From: a virus
Reading direction: 5' to 3' (one strand)
Length of the DNA stretch: 25,438 bases
IMG/VR virus record: IMGVR_UViG_3300020603_000126
Coordinates: 1-25,438 of that record
The translations under genes were made by a program, and so were the position numbers. Positions 2,149 to 20,873 of the stretch are shown here, piece by piece (positions within the stretch are counted from its first letter, which is position 1; the number at the start of each line of letters is the position of its first letter). Under the pieces are notes generated by a model. The model was not told the DNA's origin, did no database searches, and was given only the letters and a program-made list of their open reading frames with translations.

Positions 2149-4254
2149 TTATGCTGCTGCCAATGAGTACTGCACTATTGCACTGGATTGCCCGCCTGTG
2201 CTGGTAGCTTTTACGCTCACAGTTCCGCCGGAATAAGTGGCGGTGAGTTCAGCAGTGTCCGCTGAGCCTGTGTTGACCACACCATAGGTATTGATGTAAG
2301 CAGATGACCCATCATGTATAACGTGTGCCTTCATCACCGAATACTCGCCGTTGGCCGAATCGGTTACCTGCACATACAATTCAGCTGATCTGTAGGTAGT
2401 TGCGTTGAAATCCATTATTGTGGTGGCAGCACTGGTGAAATTCACTGATGATGTCAGTGATCTCGCAACCCCGCCCGCTTGGACTGCAGTGTTATCAAAA
2501 CCTTCTATGGCGAATATCCTTGCTCCCGAATGCGGAGCAGAACCAAACGTTATGCCTGTACCAGACACAGTGTAGTTCTCTGTGGGTTCTTGATACACGT
2601 TGTCAATGTACACCTGTACGTTGTTGGCGCCGGCTGGTGCAGTTGAGAAGAATCCTGAAAAAGTTGATGTTGAGCCATCACCTGTAGCGCTGACCTTGTT
2701 GATTGAAACGTTGGACCCGCCCAGTGCGAAAGAGGCCCAAGTTGATCCGTCCGTGGATCCTTCATAGGTGCTGAGTGTTGTGTTGTACCTTATGACCCCG
2801 GTGTTACACGTGGGTCGCTCTGCTGTGGAACCCTGTGGCAATTGTAGTGCATCTGTGGTGCTGATGTCCAATGAGTAGGCCGGTGTGCTGGTGCTGATAC
2901 CGATCTTGTCCGCTGATGCGTCCACGTAGAACAGATCTGCGTCTGAGTCTCCCTCGATGACCACGTCAACGTTGGCTCCCGCCTCGTTGATCCTGATCGA
3001 GCTGGTGGCCGCTCCGTCAATCTTCAATATGCCTGTGGTGTTTGTGACCTGTGTATTGGTGCCATCGTGTGCCACTGTGAAATCATTTCCTGCACCGATC
3101 CTCAATGATTGGTTGTCCGCGTCGATGTCAATGCCAGCGTTGGCGTCTATTGATGTAAACTGTCCTGTGCTTCTTGAACTTGCGCCAATAGCAGTGCCAT
3201 CGATCGTGCTACCGATCGTGCCACCAGTTATGGTAACACCGCTAGAAGAAAAATTATTGGCAGTAACGGCGCCAGTGGAGTTAGCAATAGTGATAGATTC
3301 TGTTCCGTCTAGTGCCTTGATTGCTCCTGTATTCAATGATGTCGATGCAGAGATTATGCCTGCTCTGATATTTGAATATGAGTCTATGGTAACGTTACCT
3401 GCTGTGTTGCCTGTTTCTGCTGCTGTGTTGGCGAATGCGAACTCATCAGCTGATTCATCCCAAATGAAAGACACGTTGCTTAATGAACCCCTGTTGAATA
3501 ATAGACCTTGATCGTATGTGTTGCCTGCTCCACCTGAATTATTTTTTGCCAAAATAATAAGCGGATCTTCGATCGTTAAAGTTGTGGATTCGATCGTTGT
3601 GGTAGTACCATTAACTGTCAGGTTACCTCCCACTGTTACGTTGCCGGATGTGTCCACTGTGGTGAAAGTTCCCGCTGCTGCAACACTGCCACCGATTATG
3701 GTGCCATCGATAGCACCGCCATTGATGTCCACTGTGTTGGCGTTTAATGTGGTGAACGCGCCACTAGCTAGCACCGATGCACCGATCGTGGTTCCGTCTA
3801 TGGCTCCGCCATCGATGTTTACTTTGGTCATGACCACAGATCCTGTGCCATTAGGTGTTATACTAATATCTGCATTGGCAGTTGATACGATTGAAAATCC
3901 ATTAACATCTAAATTGCCACCAAGTTGCGGAGTTGTATCTTCCACTATGTCGTCAATACCTTGATCTGCTAAATTCTTCCATTCGCTATTGCTGTATCCT
4001 TCGATGGTGTTCAAGGTGCTGTTGTATCTGATATCTCCATTGGCCGAAGTGCCTCGCTGTTCGGTGGTGCCCGATGGTAATCTCAGAGCGCCTGTGCCGC
4101 TCAAGTGTAATTGTCTTGATGGTGTTGATGTACCAATACCCACGAATGAGTTGGTTACGTCTAAAACTAATAAATTTGTCTCGAATGCTAAGTCAACGCC
4201 AGACCTTAATAGGTTGGCTTTGAGCATCTGTCCTGAAATACGTCCTATAGCCAT
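2149..4254 (-). CDS. Large modular fibre-like virion protein
   Basis: A 701-residue protein starting with the shared module (MAIGRISGQMLKANLL, DLAFETNLLVLDVTNS, VGIGTSTPS). It then has two copies of an LPxGTT-xxR-xxxxGxIRYN-T module (near residues 57 and 475), three copies of a GG-IDGTxIGAS-xxxGxFT unit, the LTVNGTTTTIES ... FIWDESADEF module, and a VYIDNVYQEPTENY module near residue 575. The last 120 residues (SVNFTSAATTIMDFN onward) form a distinct end domain. The mix of repeats is typical of trimeric beta-helical fibres. A GAGGA ribosome site precedes the ATG. It carries more of the region's modules than any other gene here, so it may be the main long fibre; that is inference. Confidence 0.8.
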   Translation of the reverse strand: MAIGRISGQMLKANLLRSGVDLAFETNLLVLDVTNSFVGIGTSTPSRQLHLSGTGALRLPSGTTEQRGTSANGDIRYNSTLNTIEGYSNSEWKNLADQGIDDIVEDTTPQLGGNLDVNGFSIVSTANADISITPNGTGSVVMTKVNIDGGAIDGTTIGASVLASGAFTTLNANTVDINGGAIDGTIIGGSVAAAGTFTTVDTSGNVTVGGNLTVNGTTTTIESTTLTIEDPLIILAKNNSGGAGNTYDQGLLFNRGSLSNVSFIWDESADEFAFANTAAETGNTAGNVTIDSYSNIRAGIISASTSLNTGAIKALDGTESITIANSTGAVTANNFSSSGVTITGGTIGSTIDGTAIGASSRSTGQFTSIDANAGIDIDADNQSLRIGAGNDFTVAHDGTNTQVTNTTGILKIDGAATSSIRINEAGANVDVVIEGDSDADLFYVDASADKIGISTSTPAYSLDISTTDALQLPQGSTAERPTCNTGVIRYNTTLSTYEGSTDGSTWASFALGGSNVSINKVSATGDGSTSTFSGFFSTAPAGANNVQVYIDNVYQEPTENYTVSGTGITFGSAPHSGARIFAIEGFDNTAVQAGGVARSLTSSVNFTSAATTIMDFNATTYRSAELYVQVTDSANGEYSVMKAHVIHDGSSAYINTYGVVNTGSADTAELTATYSGGTVSVKATSTGGQSSAIVQYSLAAA

Positions 4255-8884: not shown

Positions 8885-9301
8885 TTAGACCACGTCGATT
8901 ACAACTGATCCAGAAACTGCAGTGTCTTCTGCTGCCGCTGTGCCTAGGCTGTACTTGGCCACGCCTGTGGCGCCAGCCGCTGTGACATAGTGGACGGTGT
9001 TGTTGAAGAACTTGGCAACGTAGGCCACTGTAGAGTCTCCCAGCAACACTTTGACGCAGAATTCGCCTTCTGCCAATGATGCCGGAGCCACGGCCTTGAG
9101 TGTCAAGATTGAATCAGAGCTGTCGTTTTGCTGATGTATCTTGAACCTCTTAGATGATCTCTGGCTGATGATGAAAGAATTGTCGTCTTGCTGCAGAGAG
9201 CCACCAGTTGGAAAGTAGGCTGTAACTTCGATCTTGCCCGCTGTTCCTTCTGCGTTTACGTTTGGGTCTGAGAAACGTATTTTTTTTAATGGTCGTCCCA
9301 T
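8885..9301 (-). CDS. Conserved small virion structural protein
   Basis: A 138-residue protein starting MGRPLKKIRFSDPN, then a beta-rich body (KIEVTAYFPTGGSL, NSFIISQRSSKRFKIHQ, FCVKVLLGDSTVAYVAKFF) and a C-terminal valine-rich strand (SGSVVIDVV). The MGRPL-start type with a 'VSQK/ISQR' motif is familiar from marine myovirus structural regions but has no assigned role that I can name. It is monocistronic in layout. A long structured leader (9302-9405) lies between a late-type promoter and a strong AGGAG ribosome site 7 bases from the ATG, which suggests high and perhaps controlled expression. A capsid-decoration or tail-associated role is possible but unproven. Confidence 0.65.
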   Translation of the reverse strand: MGRPLKKIRFSDPNVNAEGTAGKIEVTAYFPTGGSLQQDDNSFIISQRSSKRFKIHQQNDSSDSILTLKAVAPASLAEGEFCVKVLLGDSTVAYVAKFFNNTVHYVTAAGATGVAKYSLGTAAAEDTAVSGSVVIDVV

Positions 9302-9308
9302 TTGTTTT

Positions 9309-9324
9309 CTCCTTTGTTTAGGAG
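9309..9324 (-). promoter_or_regulatory. Ribosome binding site inside a small hairpin
   Basis: On the minus strand CTCCT (9324-9320) can pair with the ribosome site AGGAG (9313-9309) across an AAACAA loop. The ATG is 7 bases further on. The stem is only 5 bp, so it may merely tune translation. Confidence 0.45.
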
Positions 9325-9330
9325 TCCAAT

Positions 9331-9387
9331 GCTGGTTCTACCAGCTACGCGGTGGTTATCCGCATAAGTCTCCACACCATTGTGGAG
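9331..9387 (-). other. Structured 5' leader with three hairpins
   Basis: In order on the minus strand: CTCCACA/TGTGGAG (9387-9370, 7-bp perfect stem, 4-base loop), GCGG/CCGC (9363-9349, 4-bp) and GCTGG/CCAGC (9345-9331, 5-bp, 5-base loop). All lie between the late-type promoter at 9406 and the ribosome site of the 138-residue gene. Confidence 0.5.
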
Positions 9388-16565: not shown

Positions 16566-18782
16566 TTATATTATAGAAGGCCCCACTTTATCAACCACTT
16601 TGGAAGTTTTTTTGGTATTCTTCTCGGTGGCTGCATTAATGCTTACCAAGGTATTTAATGCTTTGTTGTTGGCTTTTTGCAGCTCCAGTGTCTCCTTTGC
16701 AGTCATGTTGTACTGTGTCATTTGTGACGTCAGCATTGCATACTGAGCAGCAGCGCTCTGTCCTTCCTTGTTGTATTCCTGTGTTTCCTGCCGATTTAAT
16801 ACCCTCTCACCTGATTCCACTTGCAACATGCTGGTTTTGGGTTCAAATGGTAAACCTGTTTCGCCCAGGGTGCCCGTGGCGCGCTTCTCTGGTGGTTGCA
16901 GAGAGGCCATGCCCGCCGATGCTCCCAATATCGCTCCAATTACACCGCCAATCGCTGTGCCTATACCCGGAATTATACTGCCAATTGATGCTCCTGCCAG
17001 GGCGCCGCTGGCAGCACTGGTGCCAATGCCCAACAGTTTGCCCGCATCTGACTCCGACGAGGCTGCCATGGCAGATCCTATACCGACTCCCGCGAGGCCA
17101 ATCCCCACGCCACCTGCTACTCTGGCTGCTCCACCTAATTTGCCACCCATGCCGCCGGCTCCTCCGCCCAATCCTCCGCCCAGGCCACCGGCCATTCTTA
17201 TACCAGCATAAGTACCCATAGCGTGTGTGGCTATTTGTCCTCCCTTGTCTAGTAAAAATCCCCCAATGGTTTTGCCCATGTACAGCATAGCTTTGGTACC
17301 ATTACTCAAGCCGTTGATTCCATCTGCTAGAGATTTGACACCATTGTTAAGTTGGTTGCCTGTGGTTCCTATAAAATTTCCTAATGTTGTGTAAAATCCC
17401 GTTTCGATGGATTGGAAACTGGAGCTGAGTCTCTTGGAGGAATCTTCAAACAGTGCGAGAGATTTAGTGGCTTTATCCTGTTCTGCTCTCTGTTCTTCGG
17501 TAACTGCTTTTAGATTTAGTTCGGCTGAGGCAAGTTGGTTAACCGCGCTGAATTGCCTCGCAAAAGCCACCTGTCCGGTCACTGCCACGCCTGCCAATGC
17601 TATGTTGGATCTCTTAGCAGCGTCTCTCAACATTATCATGGCCTGTGCAGAGTCTAGGGTTCCGGCGGTTAACTGTTGAATAATGCCGCTGGCCTCTGGT
17701 ATGTTCTGCACCAACATTCTTGCAGACTCGGTGACCGGAGCCCCGGAGTTAGCAATCAAATCTTGGAAGCCTTCTTTCAATCCTGGGGACAATTCACCGA
17801 TAGAAGCCGCAAACGCACTCAGTCTCTGTCCGGTCTCTTTGCTAACTGTGCCTAGGAATGCTGTGAATCTTTCGTTGGTCAGCTGAGATTCTAACTGTTT
17901 GGCCAGTGTGGTTCTCTGTTGTCCTGTCAGTTTGGAAAGTTTGTCCAGTTCTGTTCCTAAACTTTCAGCTGATTTTATTTGATCCTGCGTTGAATCTGCA
18001 ACAAAAGTACCTGTTCTTCTTTGTAAGTTTAACGTGGCCAGCAACACATCATTCAACTCATCCACTGTGAATCCCAGTGGTCCTAAACGTTCGATACTGG
18101 TTCTTCTAAACTGTTCGCTGAGTTGAGAAAATCTTTTTGCTCCCAGGGTGCTACTACCATAAAGGGCTGCCAGGCCTTCACTGTTGCGAGAAATCAATCT
18201 CACAAAATCCTGCAGTGGCAGAGCCGCGCTGGCAGCAGTTTCTCTCAGCGTGAATAAATTCTGTCCAAATGATGCCCCCACATTGGACAGCGTGCGGAAT
18301 GCGTCCAGTGAGGTGTCAGCAAAATTACCAAAATTTTGTAAACCGATGCCTATGAGGCCGAGCCTATCTTTGAAAGCACTGGTGAATTCTGTGATAGAAC
18401 CCTTGCCTGCATATGCGGCTTTGCCTAATTTTTCTAAAACATCAGCGGCACCGGTGGCATTGTCTGCTTGTTTCTGAGCTGCAGTTTCGTTCAATCCCAG
18501 CTGTCTAAATAAGCTGTAAAATTTATTGTTTAATCCTTTGGTTGCCTCGATCTCTTTTTCTTTTGCATCTATCAACTTGTTTGTGAGATCGTTTAATACT
18601 TTTTCGTCCCTGGCATTTAGGTTCAATCTTTTGGTTAAATTTTTGAACTCATCGTTGACTCGTTTGACTTGAGATGCGCTGAGGATTGGCGCCTTGCGTA
18701 ATTCGTTGATAAGCCTAGTGATTTCTTTGACTAAATCTTGGTTATATTTGGCCAGTAGCCGCTGCAGTTCCTGTTCATCCAT
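16566..18782 (-). CDS. Tail tape-measure protein candidate
   Basis: A 738-residue protein. Residues 1-110 are helical coiled coil (LAKYNQDLVKEITRLINELR). The middle is a long Ala/Leu/Gln helical region. About residues 525-635 form a Gly/Ala-rich hydrophobic stretch (GIGLAGVGIGSAMAA, IIPGIGTAIGGVIGAILGAS) like the membrane-inserting part of tape-measure proteins. A VESGERVLNRQETQEYN motif follows near residue 665. These traits and the neighbour gp26 support a tape-measure role, setting tail length and crossing the inner membrane on ejection. T4 uses gp29 (590 residues) for this, and I cannot show homology to it. It heads the head operon. AGGGG lies 10 bases before the ATG, and a perfect late promoter is at 18842-18849. 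Confidence 0.75.
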   Translation of the reverse strand: MDEQELQRLLAKYNQDLVKEITRLINELRKAPILSASQVKRVNDEFKNLTKRLNLNARDEKVLNDLTNKLIDAKEKEIEATKGLNNKFYSLFRQLGLNETAAQKQADNATGAADVLEKLGKAAYAGKGSITEFTSAFKDRLGLIGIGLQNFGNFADTSLDAFRTLSNVGASFGQNLFTLRETAASAALPLQDFVRLISRNSEGLAALYGSSTLGAKRFSQLSEQFRRTSIERLGPLGFTVDELNDVLLATLNLQRRTGTFVADSTQDQIKSAESLGTELDKLSKLTGQQRTTLAKQLESQLTNERFTAFLGTVSKETGQRLSAFAASIGELSPGLKEGFQDLIANSGAPVTESARMLVQNIPEASGIIQQLTAGTLDSAQAMIMLRDAAKRSNIALAGVAVTGQVAFARQFSAVNQLASAELNLKAVTEEQRAEQDKATKSLALFEDSSKRLSSSFQSIETGFYTTLGNFIGTTGNQLNNGVKSLADGINGLSNGTKAMLYMGKTIGGFLLDKGGQIATHAMGTYAGIRMAGGLGGGLGGGAGGMGGKLGGAARVAGGVGIGLAGVGIGSAMAASSESDAGKLLGIGTSAASGALAGASIGSIIPGIGTAIGGVIGAILGASAGMASLQPPEKRATGTLGETGLPFEPKTSMLQVESGERVLNRQETQEYNKEGQSAAAQYAMLTSQMTQYNMTAKETLELQKANNKALNTLVSINAATEKNTKKTSKVVDKVGPSII

Positions 18783-18859: not shown

Positions 18860-19717
18860 ATGACAGAAAACACCAACCCATTAAAACGCTACTACAGGCA
18901 GCCGCAGATCAGCATACGCTTGCCCAGCGGTGAAAAAAACTATGCTGAAACAGTGGTGCAGAAGACCGTCACGGGAGAACACCCTGTGCTGCCCATGACT
19001 GCGATGGATGAACTGGCCTTCCGCACGCCGGACAGCATGATGAACGGCCAGGCCACGGTGGATGTGATCAAAAGTTGCATTCCCACCATACAGGATCCAT
19101 GGCAACTGGTCAATCACGACATAGACACAGTGCTGATTGCCATCCGTATAGCCAGCTATGGAGAGACCATGGACATCACGGCAGGAGTCCCGGGCACCAA
19201 TCAAACACAGACACACACTGTGAACCTGCCACAGATGTTGGAAATCATACGGCAGGATAAGATCACAGATCACTGTGAGCTGCAGGATGGATTGAAATTG
19301 CACATCGCTCCGCTGACCTACAAACAGATCACAGATGCACAGCTGAAAACATTTGAACAACAGAGGATCTATGCGCAGGTGTCTCAGAGCAATCTCAGCG
19401 CGGAAGAAAAGACCAAGCGTTTCACGGAGAGTTTCCGGGTGCTGAGCGATCTCAATGTGGAGCTGCTGATCAACAACATCCAACGTATCCAGCTGCCCAC
19501 GGGAGAGACGGTGACCGACAGAACTGCCATACTAGACTTCATCAAGAACGCAGATGCCAGGGTCATCAGAGAACTGGAAAACAAACTGGGCAACATCCGC
19601 CAGCAGGGTTCCATCAAGCCCGTCAGGGTCAAGGCCACGGAAGAGCAGATCAAGGCCGGCGCGCCCGCCAACTACGAAGTGCCCATCACGTTCGACAACG
19701 CAAATTTTTTCGTATAA
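18860..19717 (+). CDS. gp26: Baseplate hub protein (gp26-like), zero-frame product
   Basis: A 285-residue protein with the hallmark of the T4 gp26 baseplate family near residues 54-100: FRTPDSMMNGQATVDVIKSC followed by DPWQLVNHDIDTVLIAIRI. In T4, gp26 (208 residues) acts in assembly of the baseplate hub. This version has a longer C-terminal half of amphipathic helices (YKQITDAQLKTFEQQRIYAQ, IRELENKLGNIRQQG). The ATG at 18860 has no Shine-Dalgarno sequence and depends on the late promoter at 18809. Just before the stop lies the slippery string at 19702-19711, and the -1 frame beyond it is open and protein-like, so two products are likely: this one and a 360-residue fusion. It is divergent from the tape-measure gene, which suits a tail-assembly role. 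Confidence 0.85.
   Translation: MTENTNPLKRYYRQPQISIRLPSGEKNYAETVVQKTVTGEHPVLPMTAMDELAFRTPDSMMNGQATVDVIKSCIPTIQDPWQLVNHDIDTVLIAIRIASYGETMDITAGVPGTNQTQTHTVNLPQMLEIIRQDKITDHCELQDGLKLHIAPLTYKQITDAQLKTFEQQRIYAQVSQSNLSAEEKTKRFTESFRVLSDLNVELLINNIQRIQLPTGETVTDRTAILDFIKNADARVIRELENKLGNIRQQGSIKPVRVKATEEQIKAGAPANYEVPITFDNANFFV
19702..19711 (+). promoter_or_regulatory. Tandem slippery site for -1 frameshifting
   Basis: In the gp26 frame the bases read A AAT TTT TTC. Both A AAT TTT (19702-19708) and the overlapping T TTT TTC (19705-19711) fit the X XXY YYZ rule. The zero frame ends two codons later (GTA TAA, stop 19715-19717) while the -1 frame stays open to 19941. No obvious downstream pseudoknot or upstream Shine-Dalgarno stimulator was found by eye. 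Confidence 0.7.
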
Positions 19718-19941
19718 AATTATTATCGCTCTCGGAATCTGACCTCATAAGATATCTCAAGGACCTCGAGACTGAAGGCAAGAGCATCAAGCACGAGCTG
19801 TTCAAGATCTGTTGGTACATGCGCGGTGGAGTTACCTATCAGGAAGCGCTGGCGCTGAGCCCCGCGGATCGCGACATAGTGTCCCGCATAGTCAAGGACA
19901 ATCTGGACGTCACCAAGAAAACCGGGCAGCCATTCTTTTAA
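19708..19941 (+). CDS. -1 frame extension of gp26 (C-terminal part of a 360-residue fusion)
   Basis: 77 codons plus stop in the -1 frame relative to gp26. The sequence is plainly coding: SESDLIRYLKDLETEGKSIK, then LFKICWYMRGGVTYQEALAL and DIVSRIVKDNLDVTKK, ending TGQPFF. No ATG, GTG or TTG occurs in this frame from 19501 until the ATG at 19819, which lies in the middle of the conserved-looking part and would leave only 40 residues. The simplest reading is ribosome slippage at 19702-19711, joining 283 gp26 residues to these 77. By analogy with lambda gpG/gpGT it may recruit the tape-measure protein. In T4 gene 51 follows gene 26, so this piece could instead be a remnant or counterpart of gp51. 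A sequencing or assembly indel is the main alternative. Confidence 0.7.
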   Translation, partial: FRIKLLSLSESDLIRYLKDLETEGKSIKHELFKICWYMRGGVTYQEALALSPADRDIVSRIVKDNLDVTKKTGQPFF

Positions 19942-20138: not shown

Positions 20139-20392
20139 ACATCGCTGCTGTCGCCGGGCGGTTGTGCTGTACCCGTTAGCTCATTCATTACAACGCGAAT
20201 CCATGTGGTCTCTGCATGATGATCCCACCTGGACCTGGAGTTGGATCTGTTTCCCAGAGCTCCATCCTTTTTGCCTGTCGCGTCAAGTGATTCGCCGCCC
20301 ACCTGCATGGGAGTAGTTCACTGTTTTACCAAGGACGCTATAGAGCCTATTGTATTTTTTTTTTTGATTTTAAGATGCCTGTGTCATGTGTA

Positions 20393-20398
20393 TATAAT
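20393..20398 (+). promoter_or_regulatory. Possible early (sigma-70 type) -10 box
   Basis: A perfect TATAAT, with only a weak TTAAGA at 17-base spacing as the -35. It could give the endonuclease gene an early transcript. The box overlaps a hairpin (20394-20411). Confidence 0.3.
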
Positions 20399-20429
20399 AT
20401 GCGTATATTATTCTCAAGTGATTCTTGAG
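20394..20429 (+). other. Two adjacent hairpins before the endonuclease gene
   Basis: ATAATAT/ATATTAT with a GCGT loop (20394-20411), then CTCAAG/CTTGAG with a TGATT loop (20413-20429), followed at once by TTTAAATA. They may end or attenuate early transcripts reading toward the endonuclease; this is inference. Confidence 0.45.
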
Positions 20430-20437
20430 TTTAAATA
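20430..20437 (+). promoter_or_regulatory. Late-promoter-like octamer (TTTAAATA)
   Basis: The TAAATA core on the plus strand lies 10 bases before the GTG at 20448. The spacing is similar to that at 6296-6313 and 8828-8818. Confidence 0.35.
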
Positions 20438-20447
20438 CGCACATGCA

Positions 20448-20873
20448 GTGGATCTACAGAAACCAGCCAGTGACCGAATTACAAATGATTGTGTGGGGTT
20501 CGTATATCTCATTACCAACATGGAGAATGGTCGCATGTATGTGGGCAAGAAGCTGTCTAGATTCAAGACTACGCGATACAAGATGCACACGCAAAAAAAC
20601 GGAAAAAAAGTGCGCAAAAAAATTCGCGGCGCTGTGGACAGCGACTGGCAAGACTACTACGGCAGCAGTGATCAGCTGGAGCGAGACATAGAAGCTTTGG
20701 GCAAAGATCGATTTCGGAGAGAAATACTTTTCTATTGCAGGAGCAAAGCAGAATTGAATTATGTGGAGGCCCGTGAACAGTTTGCCAGGAAAGTTTTGGA
20801 GTCTGATCGATACTACAATGGACACATCCGCGTGCGAGTGCATGGATCACTGATCATTGATAAAGAATTATGA
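20448..20873 (+). CDS. SegE-like GIY-YIG endonuclease, probable GTG start
   Basis: A 141-residue protein. The GIY-YIG hallmarks are VGFVYLITN and GRMYVGKK (residues about 16-35), an Arg-rich segment, DSDWQDYYGSS (near 65-75), KDRFRREILFYC, the catalytic-type Glu in NYVEAREQFARKVL and YYNGHIRV near the end. This is the layout of the SegE-type single-domain endonucleases of T4 relatives, which cut DNA and spread their own gene. The frame is open upstream to an ATG at 20241, but that 69-residue extension is hydrophobic, Cys-rich and lies over the hairpin region, so it is rejected. No ATG exists near the domain in frame. GTG at 20448 fits length and promoter position, with a second GTG at 20493 right at the domain edge. 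Confidence 0.75.
   Translation: MDLQKPASDRITNDCVGFVYLITNMENGRMYVGKKLSRFKTTRYKMHTQKNGKKVRKKIRGAVDSDWQDYYGSSDQLERDIEALGKDRFRREILFYCRSKAELNYVEAREQFARKVLESDRYYNGHIRVRVHGSLIIDKEL

Follow-up and report, generated by a model that had tools for sequence, protein, structure and literature searches.

Frameshifting in tail-assembly chaperone genes is reportedly conserved in several groups of T4-like phages. In phage lambda, the tape-measure protein is served by two tail-assembly chaperones, gpG and gpGT (PMC5009743), and the work of Xu, Hendrix and Duda (2004), as summarised in the same article, describes a conserved tail-assembly frameshift of dsDNA phages. The T4 proteins gp26 and gp51 are both given as hub assembly chaperones in the list of PMC3004832, and Vladimirov, Gautam and Davidson (2022; Virology 566:9-15) reportedly identified the tail-assembly chaperones of T4-like phages as gp26 (TAC-N) and gp51 (TAC-NC). 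The 2022 study is cited in PMC10885494 for some T4-like phages having two separate genes instead of frameshifting, and in PMC12846349 for poly-T -1 frameshift signals in T4-like TAC-N genes. PMC12846349 also deals with the Vandenendeviridae/Andersonviridae, whose phage Adele has the slippery string GTTTTT. The original prediction for the locus reported here had assumed that no frameshift was established in gp26 of T4-type phages, an assumption that these reports on genes 26 and 51 and on the poly-T signals contradict; the chaperone genes 26/51 were described in 2022, frameshifting has been reported for other T4-like phages, and the present locus is not a new system.

The DNA examined is a 25,438-base viral fragment from IMG/VR, the whole of which we call the window. 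The features of its chaperone locus are as follows.

16566..18782, minus strand: tape-measure-like neighbour gene, divergent, 738 aa (phrog_794 and similarity to the neighbours of gp26 in jumbo relatives)
18860..19717, plus strand: TAC-N, a gp26-like baseplate hub/tail-assembly chaperone ORF, 285 aa, 0 frame (PF12322, phrog_150 and profile link)
19702..19711, plus strand: tandem slippery string A_AAT_TTT_TTC, invariant in relatives
19715..19717, plus strand: 0-frame stop codon TAA ending TAC-N, read from the sequence
19705..19941, plus strand: TAC-C, the -1 frame domain, 78 aa plus stop
join(18860..19711,19711..19941), plus strand: predicted TAC-NC fusion, 360 aa, about 40 kDa
19734..19742, plus strand: GGAATCTGA, synonymously constrained motif (consensus G GAN TCT GA), 22-31 nt 3' of the heptamer and inside the -1 domain

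The first protein is homologous to gp26, as indicated by a PF12322 (T4_baseplate) match of 44.9 bits against a curated cut-off of 24.5, by a chain of profile comparisons running from the window's clade to cyanophage gp26 (96.7%) and from cyanophage gp26 to T4 gp26 (95.8%), and by the fold matches of its AlphaFold2 model (pLDDT 86), which are T4-like baseplate hub assembly proteins. The baseplate hub family phrog_150 also matches this ORF (E=3.6e-14), and searches of the PDB by sequence and by fold, the latter for gp26 only, gave no useful match. The chaperone locus adjoins a tape-measure-like gene, though this is read divergently: its product matches the tail length tape measure family phrog_794 with E=1.1e-7 and resembles the products of genes adjoining gp26 in jumbo phages (best phmmer value 7e-10). 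The likeness of the upstream protein to gp26, a T4 hub assembly chaperone, together with this tape-measure-like next gene, speaks for reading the locus as a chaperone pair, and the G/GT-like arrangement beside a tape-measure gene that had been proposed gains support. We found no separate full-length second chaperone gene beside gp26 within the 25 kb fragment. Just 3' of the chaperone locus lies an ORF (20241-20873, plus strand) that matches the homing endonuclease family phrog_7363 with E=4e-10 and has as its best-scoring match phrog_447, named NAD synthetase. Elsewhere in the window, a freshwater-2 RNA (Rfam RF02980, a cis-regulatory-type family; 76.3 bits, cutoff 49.9) occupies 9299-9387 on the minus strand, directly 5' of the minus-strand ORF 8885-9301.

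The gp26-like ORF ends in GCA (19700), AAT (19703), TTT (19706), TTC (19709), GTA (19712) and TAA (19715), and thereby carries the tandem slippery string that had been noticed at this point, set one codon (GTA) before the stop and not two as then stated. It comprises two overlapping in-frame heptamers, A_AAT_TTT (19702-19708) and T_TTT_TTC (19705-19711), the latter being the core. Read from 19705, the -1 frame translates to FFRIKLLSLSESDLIRYLKDLETEGKSIKHELFKICWYMRGGVTYQEALALSPADRDIVSRIVKDNLDVTKKTGQPFF, 78 residues closed by a TAA at 19939-19941. No stop interrupts this frame from 19357 onwards, and the earliest ATG, GTG or TTG in it stands only at 19819, in the middle of the domain, so that the claim of a hidden domain devoid of an early start codon is borne out in the window. 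When a -1 slip was allowed at any heptamer in the 25 main ORFs of the window, gp26 alone gained length past its own stop (+221 nt), the remaining ORFs having either a negative score or no heptamer; in addition, CAAATTTTTTCG occurs once in the window against an expectation of 0. The tryptic peptide predicted to span the junction of gp26 and the domain is AGAPANYEVPITFDNANFFR.

In our reading, programmed -1 frameshifting at the end of gp26 very probably yields a TAC-N and a TAC-NC tail-assembly chaperone comparable with lambda G/GT. The majority of ribosomes would stop at gp26's own stop codon and produce TAC-N, and a minority would slip back by one base, with tRNA-Phe on TTT TTC inside the tandem A_AAT_TTT_TTC, and continue for another 76 codons to give TAC-NC, i.e. 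gp26 joined to a C-terminal helical domain in a protein of about 40 kDa. If the roles parallel those of lambda G/GT, TAC-N would coat the tape-measure protein ahead of tail-tube assembly, and the extra domain of TAC-NC would recruit tail-tube subunits. The DNA itself shows a slippery site that does not vary among relatives and a conserved -1 frame under selection, to which the slip is the sole entry in many copies; that slippage occurs, the rate at which it does so and the two chaperone roles are what we infer.

Set against the systems described above, the window shares with T4-like gp26/gp51 the membership of its TAC-N in the gp26 family (PF12322) and the -1 extension, which is also the form taken by cyanophage gp51; T4 itself is said to use two separate genes. 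The window's clade differs from these phages in its longer domain, for which the alignment with the gp51 C-terminus is not significant, in the string A_AAT_TTT_TTC, in its divergent tape-measure-like neighbour and in the 3' motif. Relative to lambda G/GT, the site T_TTT_TTC is unlike the lambda heptamer, no sequence homology is shown, and the tape-measure-like gene is divergent whereas that of lambda lies downstream. Phage Adele and its kin likewise have a poly-T slip at the end of TAC-N and a -1 frame conserved across divergent genera, but they belong to other phage families and use another slippery string, with no significant sequence relation to the window shown.

The conservation of the locus among relatives is the decisive evidence that the slippery site and the -1 frame are real features of these genomes. 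We assembled 109 loci, i.e. 108 from two IMG/VR protein searches plus the window, and in all of them (109/109) the domain lies in the -1 frame and AAT TTT TTC is kept. Among the non-redundant complete copies, the distance from slip to stop is exactly 78 codons in 76/76. Synonymous codon use was then compared, column by column, between same-residue codon pairs in the 73 copies that have a long gp26. The four codons XCA (for Ala or Ser), AAT, TTT and TTC were 100% identical, against a mean same-residue codon identity of 45% over the 204 other gp26 columns, and elsewhere in gp26 Asn and Phe each use both of their codons about evenly. Across the 76 non-redundant copies the -1 domain displays a pS of 0.65, a pN of 0.14, a dN/dS of about 0.10 and zero stops, which indicates purifying selection; the same DNA read in the other two frames gives dN/dS values of 1.2 and 2.4, with stops present. 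This constraint reaches the FFR residues that precede any start codon, and TTT TTC is held constant at its synonymous positions too.

In a third search the sole criterion was a peptide motif lying at a distance, [KE][IML][CS]W[YF]MRG, and this returned 80 loci, of which 73 were unique (partly the same contigs as in the first searches). T TTT TTC was present in 73/73 of this unbiased set, and the AAT preceding the T-run was replaced by GCT, GAT or AGT in seven of the 73. As T TTT TTC is thus universal in the set while AAT varies, these data suggest that T_TTT_TTC is the essential site and that A_AAT extends it in the window's closer clade. The proposed fusion of gp26 to a hidden -1 domain is therefore supported by an invariant heptamer and a selected frame, and the conserved heptamer and the downstream segment under purifying selection that it led one to expect among relatives are both found.

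The way in which ribosomes could enter the domain was examined in the same copies. The -1 frame is open for merely 6-9 nt 5' of the slip in 66/76, and six unique distant copies have a -1 stop codon immediately next to the slippery run and the 0-frame stop a few codons beyond it, which brackets the slip position. Between the last upstream -1 stop (or a 60-nt limit) and codon 15 after the slip, 31 of the 76 copies lack any ATG, GTG or TTG; one of the six distant copies with a -1 stop abutting the slip (L186) also has no start codon. In such start-less copies, judged on their reading frames, slippage at TTT TTC is the natural way into the domain.

The same arrangement extends to more distant phages. 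All ten jumbo phages in our gp26-homologue set (Atu_ph07, Phosso, PA5oct, 121Q, XbC2, XaC1, Vibrio 2.275.O, CBB, RaK2 and Kaldavass) have TTT TTC near the end of gp26 and a -1 domain starting FF (mostly FFR), and two cyanophages likewise keep TTT TTC with a -1 domain starting FF. When a divergent domain sequence was used as a tblastn query, matches were obtained in 81 phage records. In the cyanophages S-RIM8, S-WAM1 and P-SSM3, Pelagibacter phage HTVC008M, Ochrobactrum phage OC and others, a T-run likewise joins gp26 to a gp51-like extension in the -1 frame. The so-called gp51 of cyanophages is the -1 extension after TTT TTC. In S-RIM8 the gp51 annotation, 'baseplate hub assembly catalyst' (3621-3758), begins in the middle of the domain; this gp51 very probably represents just the end of a gp26 made by frameshifting, and its annotated N-terminus looks wrong. 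A frameshift would also explain the observation of Sullivan et al. (2010; PMC3037559) that cyanophage gp51 has just about 20% of the usual length. T4 gene 26 terminates in GAG TTC TTT GAG, with no T_TTT_TTC and no long -1 frame at this position, and gp51 lies beside gp26 as a separate gene; the lack of a slippery site is consistent with T4 using separate genes.

Of the other explanations, the one that survives best, which we nevertheless regard as very improbable, is that ribosomes re-initiate or start independently just past the gp26 stop and make the domain as a small protein of its own, the T-run being incidental. It draws on the separate gp51 gene of T4, on the short separate ORFs annotated at the domain in databases and on half of the jumbo relatives (Atu_ph07, Phosso, 121Q, XbC2 and Kaldavass), in which an ATG overlaps the gp26 stop as ATGA or TAATG in the -1 frame. 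The TAATG form, with a one-base overlap and its ATG in the -1 frame that the slip would reach, is that of 121Q, XbC2 and Kaldavass. The expectation that the segment would have no start of its own stood for the window and the 31 start-less copies, but not for these distant jumbo relatives, in which separate initiation or re-initiation may add to or replace slippage. Against such initiation as the general route are those start-less copies, the absence of any Shine-Dalgarno-like run from the 20 nt upstream in all 76 copies, the conservation of FFR ahead of any start, the frozen synonymous positions of TTT TTC, and the retention of TTT TTC in phages with no ATG near the domain start, namely PA5oct, RaK2 and XaC1.

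Slightly less probable again is slippage of the RNA polymerase on the T-run, whereby one U inserted in some transcripts would generate the fusion. A single inserted U gives the same peptide, the T-run is invariant, and a longer run of eight T is present in HTVC008M and Melnitz-1. However, the run has merely six T in the window and in the whole clade, and efficient polymerase slippage is known at longer runs than this; moreover, neither the AAT before the run nor the C after it varies, a pattern more in keeping with codon-anticodon re-pairing. Finally, a sequencing or assembly indel that split one gene into two is next to inconceivable and is refuted, since, for all that homopolymer frame breaks are typical errors, the identical break recurs in 109 loci, in the 73 unique contigs of the third search, which overlap in part with those loci, and in the complete genomes of isolates.

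We also looked for signals that could stimulate ribosomal frameshifting. A conserved motif, GGANTCTGA, lies 3' of the slippery site. Within it, every copy with Ser at codon 12 encodes it by TCT (66/66), whereas TCT makes up 7% of the domain's other Ser codons, and the third base of codon 10 is G in 90% of copies, whatever the residue; in the unbiased set the Ser codon is TCT in 51/52. The slippery site and the 3' motif together were matched exactly in at least 119 IMG/VR contigs, and a few divergent relatives are without G GAN TCT GA. The motif is near-palindromic, and a search for a complementary partner mainly returned the motif itself. It contains GANTC, the frequency of which in the window is at chance level. 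No consistent conserved 3' stem-loop emerged from single-sequence folding (z=+0.98), alignment folding against column shuffles or mean pair probabilities, all of them covering pseudoknot-free structures, and the 20 nt upstream held no Shine-Dalgarno-like stimulator in the 76 copies. G GAN TCT GA is a candidate stimulator or some other RNA signal. That this element, as a new kind of 3' signal, tunes slippage in the clade together with the tandem slippery string, in place of a stem-loop or pseudoknot, is a tentative proposal that we consider rather unlikely.

The -1 domain itself is predicted by AlphaFold2 to be helical, with a pLDDT of 91.9, and it matched no family in Pfam, NCBIfam or PHROGs; the baseplate hub assembly catalyst family phrog_634 gave a weak match (E 0.038) in 3/52 domain members. 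Comparison with the T4 gp51 C-terminus by hhalign aligned a 'P-x-E/D-R' region common to both but did not reach significance. Fold searches returned weak matches to ZZ1 gp51 (prob 0.41, E=2.3) and to the tape measure chaperone of Moogle (prob 0.66, E=2.0).

What is new here is the large marine and jumbo clade, the tandem slippery string and the conserved 3' motif, the last being the most original feature. These findings widen the range of an established recoding mechanism to jumbo phages and to marine T4-like viruses, a large group of which most are uncultured. They offer a correction of annotation for the jumbo-phage records, which either list the second half as a hypothetical gene of its own or omit it. 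The cultivable jumbo phages 121Q, RaK2 and PA5oct offer systems in which slippage can be measured, and the conserved downstream motif could be a new frameshift stimulator.
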